This document shows positions 21,415 through 22,934 of a DNA stretch of 26,149 nucleotides, piece by piece. The stretch lies in IMG/VR virus record IMGVR_UViG_3300030109_002408, positions 1-26,149 of that record, one strand, 5' to 3'. Position 1 is the stretch's first letter. The number at the start of each line of letters is the position of its first letter. The DNA is from a virus. The notes beneath the pieces were generated by a model, which was given only the letters and a program-made list of their open reading frames with translations, ran no database searches and was not told where the DNA came from. Position numbers and translations under genes: made by a program.

Positions 21415-21565
21415 CTTGCCTCCTTTATATAAATATATCATAGCAGGTGTGAAAAAATTTTTTTTAAACGACTAACCCTCACTTGCGTGAGGGCTTTACC
21501 GTTACGATAATAGTCGTCAATCAGAAAGGAAAATGCAATGAATAAAGAATTATTTGTTGCATCCT
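21415..21565 (-). promoter_or_regulatory. Structured leader of the structural operon
   Basis: From the promoter at 21572-21598 to the first start codon there are about 150 nt. On the minus strand they hold a weak 6-bp hairpin (ATGCAA/TTGCAT). A nested structure follows: outer stem 21468-21474 with 21511-21517 (7 bp) and inner stem 21476-21482 with 21487-21493 (7 bp), capped by GCAA, a GNRA tetraloop only on this strand. After it come eight A and six T (21452-21465). The T-run is short and preceded by A, so it is a poor terminator but could act as an attenuator. Confidence 0.5.
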
Positions 21566-21571
21566 GGTTTT

Positions 21572-21598
21572 AGTATAACATAAACTTGTAATTGTAAA
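21572..21598 (-). promoter_or_regulatory. Promoter for the structural (terL-portal-virion) operon
   Basis: On the minus strand TTTACA (21593-21598) and TATACT (21572-21577) are separated by 15 bases, with TG one base before the -10 (extended -10). TTTATGTTATACTAA differs by one base from the same stretch in the promoter at 816-842, with equal spacing to the -35. This repetition at the only two long minus-strand gaps in the structural region is the main evidence. Start of transcription near 21565. Confidence 0.68.
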
Positions 21599-21839
21599 GA
21601 ACTTATGGTAGATTGATTTCACAATCAGAGAGTTCTTCCTGCTTTTAGAAAAGGATTCTTGATAAAACATCAATAAAGTGGACTAGCAGGACCATGTTAA
21701 CTAGGGTCACAGCCTATTACTTCATAATATAAAATAAGTCATAAACAGATTTGTTATCGGTTGGGAGGGATGACACAGGGTGAGATGTACTTCAAATGTT
21801 TACTTTACTTGACTAACACTGACATAAAAGGTACACCAC

Positions 21840-21869
21840 TATATATAGTACCACTACATCTAGTACCAC
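21840..21869. repeat. Tandem 15-bp repeat (TAGTACCAC type)
   Basis: Two adjacent 15-mers, TATATATAGTACCAC (21840-21854) and TACATCTAGTACCAC (21855-21869), match at 13 of 15 positions, and GGTAC just upstream pairs with GTACC in the first. The layout suggests a double operator site on one or two helical turns, about 270 bp upstream of the structural promoter. Confidence 0.6.
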
Positions 21870-21992
21870 AGTTAACAGCATATTTTTAGCGTGTATACAC
21901 ATTACAAAGCCGCCCCCTCGATTTAACCCTGCCATGCTTAATCCTGCTATACATTGTGCGTTTGTGCATGTAGACATGTTACGTTTTGCTAG

Positions 21993-22042
21993 ACATACTA
22001 TATGTTGTGTGTATAGTTTGTAGCACATACTACATATTGTGT
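21993..22042. repeat. Spaced 18-bp direct repeat (ACATACTAYATRTTGTGT)
   Basis: ACATACTATATGTTGTGT (21993-22010) recurs as ACATACTACATATTGTGT (22025-22042), 16 of 18 identical, start-to-start distance 32 bp (about three helical turns). Between them lies GTTTGTAGCACATA, a close copy of the left arm element of the RNA at 22615-22934. This looks like regulator or origin-binding sites. Confidence 0.55.
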
Positions 22043-22070
22043 ACCCTTTTGATTTAGATACAGGGGATAG

Positions 22071-22166
22071 TTAGTTAACTAAGGAGATGTGCCGAAGGTT
22101 GTTGAAGTTCCAGTAAATACTGGAGAGAATAGAGAAGGGAGATGCAAGTAAGGGAGAAACCTGCAT
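22071..22166 (-). CDS. Possible micro-protein, 31 aa
   Basis: A frame of 31 codons starts with ATG at 22166 shortly behind AGGAAGGA, a good ribosome binding site. The product is Ser/Leu/Ile-rich (SPLLASPFSILSSIYWNFNN) and moderately hydrophobic. The start lies 17 nt after the stop of the 48-aa gene. The same DNA contains inverted repeats (GATGCA/TGCATC and CCAGTA/TACTGG), so the segment could instead be structured leader RNA. No homologue is recognised. Low confidence. Confidence 0.3.
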   Translation of the reverse strand: MQVSPLLASPFSILSSIYWNFNNLRHISLVN

Positions 22167-22578: not shown

Positions 22579-22608
22579 TTGTTGTTAAAATCTAGATATG
22601 TATATAAT
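22579..22608 (+). promoter_or_regulatory. Rightward promoter of the structured RNA
   Basis: TTGTTG (22579-22584) and a perfect TATAAT (22603-22608) are 18 bases apart. Transcription would begin near 22615, just before the first hairpin of the RNA. It lies back-to-back with the promoter at 22547-22575. Confidence 0.6.
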
Positions 22609-22665
22609 GAAATTGTTACTGGTCAGTAGGAGTATTTTACAGCCCTGTTTGGTACAACCGAACGC

Positions 22666-22841
22666 CAGTAGCTTGTAGCACATATGAAAGGTTGCTAGTT
22701 CATAACTAGCTAAGAACGAAACAACGAAATGCAGACCTCGTTCCATGTGTGTTACGAGCTACTGGTAGCTTGTAGCACATAGCATTGTGTAAACAGCTAA
22801 GACTTAATTGTGTAAGCCAACAACTGTGTGTTACGAGCTAC
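22666..22841 (+). repeat. Four-arm repeat L-R-L-R (TAGCTTGTAGCACA / TGTGTTACGAGCTA)
   Basis: The left element occurs from 22669 and 22766, the right element from 22749 and 22828. L and R are complementary over 14 positions when two G-U pairs are allowed. So A-left can pair with A-right or B-right, and B-left with B-right or A-right; the middle pair would form a hairpin with loop CTGG. A degenerate fifth copy (GTTTGTAGCACATA) is near 22016-22029. Confidence 0.8.
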
Positions 22842-22858
22842 ACAAGTAGCAATAGAAA

Positions 22859-22934
22859 GAGCTAGGTTAGTAACTTTCTTTCATGTAGTTATACGTACGC
22901 ATACCAAACTACTCTGACCTAGTTCTTTTTTTTT
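22859..22934 (+). terminator. Terminator-like stem at the end of the structured RNA
   Basis: GAGCTAGGTTAG (22859-22870) pairs with CTGACCTAGTTC (22914-22925) over 12 bp with two G-U, extended by A-T pairs, and is followed by nine T (22926-22934). The 43-nt loop holds its own 6-bp hairpin (GTAGTT/AACTAC). The loop is long for an intrinsic terminator, but the T-run directly behind the stem fits well. Confidence 0.6.

Follow-up and report, generated by a model that had tools for sequence, protein, structure and literature searches.

The DNA analysed here (the window) covers 26,149 of the 29,170 bases of a virus record. Its minus strand carries structural genes, with terL and very long proteins, and a divergent set of plus-strand genes starts near 22.97 kb. 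The terL product is a PHROG 38 terminase that is at most 27% identical to those of phage isolates, so that the phage can be assigned to an uncultured clade. At the DNA level, phage isolates gave no significant match to the window, to the hairpin module described below or to the module-free form of the RNA.

The predicted RNA gene at 22615-22934

Positions 22615-22934 of the plus strand hold a modular non-coding RNA gene, as judged from its fold and its conserved ends. It is preceded by a promoter-like element (22579-22608) composed of TTGTTG (22579-22584), an 18-base spacer and TATAAT (22603-22608), which stops six bases 5' of the predicted start GTTACTGG. This element is aligned and conserved in the related contigs L123, L079, L202 and L204, and is also present in L237 and L265. 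The 3' end is an intrinsic terminator (22854-22934), with a 17-bp stem (22854-22870/22914-22930) and a T-run (22926-22934), the stem of which covaries in relatives (GAGCTAGG/CCTAGTTC versus GAGCCAGG/CCTGGTTC). Both the promoter and the T-run had been pointed out in a first-pass annotation of the DNA and are confirmed here. A GDSL-hydrolase gene, matched also in L058, L061, L079 and other loci, follows shortly after the terminator. With these predicted signals, the segment has the layout of a discrete RNA gene.

The minimum free energy of the plus strand of this segment is -118.1 kcal/mol, compared to -77.3 +/- 4.6 kcal/mol for shuffled sequences (z = -9.0, with 0 of 100 shuffles as good), while the minus strand reaches only z = -3.4. 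The structured plus-strand RNA proposed in the earlier reading is supported. Its description of the RNA as unnamed also stands; a search of the window against Rfam 15, including GOLLD, ROOL, riboswitches and IMES RNAs, returned no match at the gathering score. The same holds for 12 related loci (127 kb), and the best sub-threshold Rfam match scored 16.8 bits against a cut-off of 41.5. We found no description of such an RNA in the open-licence literature. That a structured plus-strand RNA is encoded here seems to us almost certain.

Four arms lie within the gene in the order left-right-left-right, as had been reported: the left arm GTAGCTTGTAGCACATA at 22668 and 22765, and the right arm TGTGTGTTACGAGCTAC at 22746 and 22825. 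Chance alone would give 0.06 matches. From these matches and the fold, two successive hairpins are predicted, in agreement with the first description. Module A (22666-22764) has a 21-bp helix (22666-22686/22744-22764), and module B (22765-22841) has an 18-bp helix (22765-22782/22824-22841) with cargo domain B between its strands. Each 14-nt arm pairing contains the two G-U pairs counted earlier, and each 17-nt left/right pairing contains three. In the minimum free energy fold of the window, the 3' joint AGTAGC (22845-22850) pairs with GTTACT at the 5' end (22615-22620); in L079, L237 and L265, the equivalent GTAGC pairs instead with a preceding GCTAC.

Further upstream, the minus strand at 21460-22085 holds a non-coding stretch of 500-620 bases that is about 75% conserved among terL relatives and includes a terminator-like hairpin near 21494-21475. 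The DNA of this stretch is conserved, yet covariation was found on neither strand, and we consider it a candidate origin, promoter region or second RNA. Within the conserved stretch, the plus strand carries a single left-arm-like half site, ATAGTTTGTAGCACATA (22013-22029), for which no partner arm was found.

Hairpin modules, cargo domains and core

An exact scan with the 17-base left arm retrieved at least 119 virus contigs, nearly all with a complementary right arm downstream on the same strand. The module loops comprise 140 distinct sequences in 81 clusters; a given loop turns up between different flanks, and a given pair of flanks can enclose different loops. When just the nine outermost bases of each arm were used as the query, 183 modules were obtained after strand resolution. 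Their inner helices are of about 45 distinct kinds, all of them paired, against 2 matches in shuffled sequence; this is direct compensatory evolution. Relatives thus display the compensatory changes that the first-pass annotation had proposed to look for, rather than arms preserved without them. The modules end in a standard, self-compatible joint, GTAGGTAGC...GCTATCTAT. On the chosen strand the arm pairs include 768 G-U against 30 A-C pairs, a count in which the strand choice itself used pairing; the orientation relative to terL provides an independent test. The left arm lies opposite terL in all 28 long contigs that have both, two of which carry a right-arm variant that matches the other strand too. 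None of the 183 modules overlaps an ORF of at least 80 aa, the next gene is co-directional for 164 of them, and about 30% end 10-30 bases upstream of a start codon.

Homogenisation of the arms within genomes was considered and rejected, the arms differing more within contigs than between contigs. A partner protein was not retained either, no neighbour being consistent: the commonest one is an AAA+-like ATPase (55 of 139 loci), in a comparison confounded by a reference group taken from elsewhere in the genome. This ATPase is seen in the early region of array-bearing loci, for example near 4531 in L040. As a separate observation, L008, L010, L084, L012 and L004 hold further hairpin types on the same joint, with CCCTTTCTGT-like sequence in their loops that is complementary to the ribosome-binding sites (AGAAAGG) found in these phages; CCTTTCT occurs in 7 of the 183 modules.

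The loop domains, or cargos, recur independently of the arms. Cargo A (22685-22745) comprises a hairpin (22694-22699/22705-22710), a helix (22689-22692/22735-22738) and a putative 3-bp pseudoknot (22716-22718/22739-22741), and recurs at other loci, in 19 unique sequences that sit on several kinds of closing helix. Hairpin and helix covary in the corresponding alignment (A2), which offers no such signal for the three pseudoknot pairs; these never vary and so prove nothing. Cargo B sits on the same arms in L017, L099 and L281 and on a different helix in L242. Three domains (D4, D5 and D9) occur both as cargo inside module hairpins and as linkers between hairpins, implying that the slots on both sides of the joint are interchangeable. 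A search for hidden tRNAs found none in the window nor in 29 loci. The reverse strand of L115 carries, near 1955-2035, a sequence resembling a tRNA, its ends matching and its T-arm reading GAGGGTTCAACTCCCTC, for which ARAGORN makes no call, and the cargos of L023 and L038 contain a T-arm-like GTTCAAATCC element.

Comparison of relatives at the same locus reveals the RNA gene with zero modules (L123, L202, L204), with one module (L079 and L237, with differing cargos, and L265, with cargo A) and, in the window, with two modules carrying cargos A and B. The three states share promoter, start and terminator, and four different cargos are found at this one locus. A second empty/filled pair is formed by L127, without a module, and L126, with a module whose insertion point is again immediately 3' of the core. 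In the window, L079, L237 and L265 the insertion is flanked on either side by GTAGC, where the empty form has a single GTAAC; a target duplication is absent in L126 versus L127. Modules have very probably been exchanged between phages.

The part that remains where modules are absent is the core (22615-22672), whose outer stem (22615-22623/22664-22672) encloses AGTA (22625-22628) opposite GAAC (22660-22663) and an apical loop with CCCTGTT (22643-22649). In its general layout, an outer stem of 9 bp is followed by AGUA facing GAA(A/C), two further pairs, a variable helix of 5 bp and a loop that contains the invariant CCCUGUU; we take the AGUA/GAA arrangement to resemble a sarcin-ricin or loop E motif. 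The core of the window scores 61.7 bits (E 7e-13) with the covariance model, the window being itself among the model's 32 sequences. In the underlying alignment (A1, 32 distinct sequences), 96.7% of cells are paired and 14 of the 16 pairs have changed on both sides; 0 of 500 shuffles reach any of the measures, and RNAalifold, unaided, yields the same structure. An independent scan, using a pattern that fixes mainly unpaired bases, gave 48 new unique matches, of which 33 form 8-9 of the nine outer-stem base pairs and the others 4-7, as chance predicts. Over the whole set there are 21 different outer stems. In each contig that is positive with the covariance model, among them 23 of the 42 module- or core-bearing contigs, there is exactly one core, always on the strand opposite terL where both are known. 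An antisense role of the CCCTGTT loop was considered and dropped, its complement AACAGGG not being enriched near start codons. The loop complement is also absent from E. coli 16S, 23S and 5S rRNA, and the one match in that region, in tRNA-Glu, is expected by chance.

Judged by these sequence comparisons, the RNA is built from a single-copy core and zero to several hairpin modules on its 3' side, with loop domains that are conserved, structured and portable. The terL family of the window (44-85% identical) is present in 28 of the 34 contigs that carry modules and in 27 of the 30 that carry a core. Conversely, modules are sporadic among terL relatives (4 of 26), and the covariance model detects the core in 9 of 26, indicating that not all of the clade depends on the RNA. 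A cellular genome collection contained one matching contig (L121), in the gammaproteobacterial MAG MED855. As L121 carries the same terL type along with a module, it is probably of phage origin, and its binning with the MAG gives a weak hint at the host. The clade is presumably mostly marine, judging from this MAG and from the sample numbers.

Alternative pairings and competing explanations

The first-pass annotation had proposed a bistable RNA whose arms could exchange partners. This swap fold (L1-R2 and R1-L2) can be drawn, yet the two local hairpins are favoured over it by 12.8 kcal/mol, and its probability is about 4e-9. The likeness of the arms comes from their membership of an exchangeable module family and not from any need of a single molecule to switch. 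What is left of the bistability is another possible choice, made by the joint. In the window, the joint CCAGUAGC (22665-22672) either closes the core with GUUACUGG (22615-22622) at -114.9 kcal/mol or extends hairpin A at -118.1 kcal/mol, a difference of 3.2 kcal/mol. According to the computed energies, joints can pair to the left (core) or to the right (cargo helix) within about 3 kcal/mol. The original observation is confirmed and was, in fact, too modest.

Such a choice is what a cis-acting bistable switch or attenuator would use: the joint would pair with either the cargo helix or the core/terminator stem, and binding to the cargo would in this way decide on termination before the downstream gene. 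The window's two joint pairings and the position of its terminator shortly before the GDSL-hydrolase gene are in line with this, as is L029, where CTATCTAG can form part of either the cargo helix or the terminator/core stem, in mutually exclusive states 2.6 kcal/mol apart; L061 has the same layout. In the one-module relatives L265, L237 and L079, the core-closed probability is about 0.6-1.0, which also suits a switch. In the window, however, a separate 5' arm (22854-22870) serves the terminator, so that module folding does not compete with it, and the swap fold is disfavoured. The cargo domains, moreover, change at a constant site, unlike a riboswitch aptamer, and we consider the switch unlikely. 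Long helices could instead be cut by RNase III, as processing or stability elements whose role would be to set genes apart or to free small RNAs from early transcripts. The modules are indeed all intergenic and nearly all co-directional with the next gene, and about 30% of them end 10-30 nt ahead of a start codon, but this rather unlikely reading leaves the conserved loop domains, the single-copy core and the stand-alone promoter-terminator gene of the window unexplained.

The hairpins might also be selfish, MITE-like mobile elements spreading between intergenic sites of phages, their arms serving as terminal inverted repeats. Compatible with this are the recurrence of identical arms in many contigs, the sporadic presence of modules, the clean empty sites and the GTAGC copies flanking the insertion, as against one GTAAC in the empty form. 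It is nevertheless improbable in view of the lack of a constant target duplication (the second pair shows none), the conserved, structured loops with compensatory changes and the strand fixed in 28 of 28 contigs. Unlike transposon ends, the arms are constant only in their outer nine bases, the inner parts varying freely while pairing is kept; an unsystematic look beside the hairpins noticed no transposase. Palindromic sites acting at the level of DNA, for protein binding, as an origin or in recombination, would account for the strong conservation of the arm sequences, seen in a sample that was itself fetched by exact match. That reading is already contradicted by the pairing data, given the paired inner helices of about 45 kinds and the G-U to A-C ratio, and the fixed strand and the far better fold of the plus strand add to this; we rate it as highly improbable.

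The explanation we favour, and hold to be probably right, is a discrete plus-strand non-coding RNA acting as a modular scaffold, probably transcribed early, in an uncultured phage clade. Recombination between identical joints would allow phages to gain, drop and exchange domains while the fold stays intact. Each loop domain may bind its own host or phage target, protein or RNA, although a scaffold specifically for target-binding domains is a tentative proposal. The RNA would then work like an accessory gene island written in RNA, and pairing of the joint with core or cargo helix could couple the state of the cargo to folding of the core. An RNA gene that evolves by domain shuffling might thereby supply combinatorial RNA effectors, for example decoys against host defence or machinery, expressed early, a possibility that we put at somewhat below an even chance.

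Relation to known elements and significance

The closest modular precedents are BOX elements and PeSLs. BOX elements of Streptococcus pneumoniae are composite repeats that lie between genes, form hairpins and vary in the number of their internal modules (boxA, boxB, boxC) (PMC3049150), a variability that the phage RNA shares. Compared by description and across different hosts, BOX is one kind of repeat with target duplications and is thought to be mobilised in trans (PMC3049150), whereas the phage RNA has many unrelated families of structured internal domains, a single-copy core and its own promoter and terminator. The promoter early stem-loop (PeSL) cassettes of T4-type phages (Arbiol 2010 and Comeau 2014, as cited in PMC4503421) are, in that secondary account, likewise repeated stem-loops of phage early regions linked with modular shuffling by recombination. 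As described there, PeSLs shuffle genes between promoter-terminator motifs, while the phage RNA shuffles RNA domains inside hairpins; the promoter and terminator of the window bound an RNA gene and not, as in the PeSLs of that account, a gene-to-gene junction cassette.

GOLLD and ROOL are large structured phage non-coding RNAs of unknown function, with GOLLD being conserved in its 3' part and less so in its 5' part (PMC12286853). The RNA described here is also a structured phage non-coding RNA, but at 144-320 nt it is much smaller, has discrete swappable modules and no Rfam match, and its window contains no tRNA genes. Integron gene cassettes with their attC sites are exchanged as units bounded by conserved palindromic ends. 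The modules resemble them in this cassette-like exchange, but contain no ORF, and their ends remain helices of the RNA. The novelty lies in the modular architecture; as a structured phage RNA of unassigned function, the molecule has known company in GOLLD and ROOL.

Domain shuffling is familiar in proteins; in the present case it is natural RNA domains that form portable cassettes, sharing a standard connector, and three states of one locus can be seen in close relatives. The comparison yields a catalogue of new structured RNA domains, and the joint offers a natural connector for RNA design. Uncultured phages are shown to carry unannotated RNA repertoires, and the idea that phages use swappable RNAs as host-takeover or counter-defence factors becomes directly testable.
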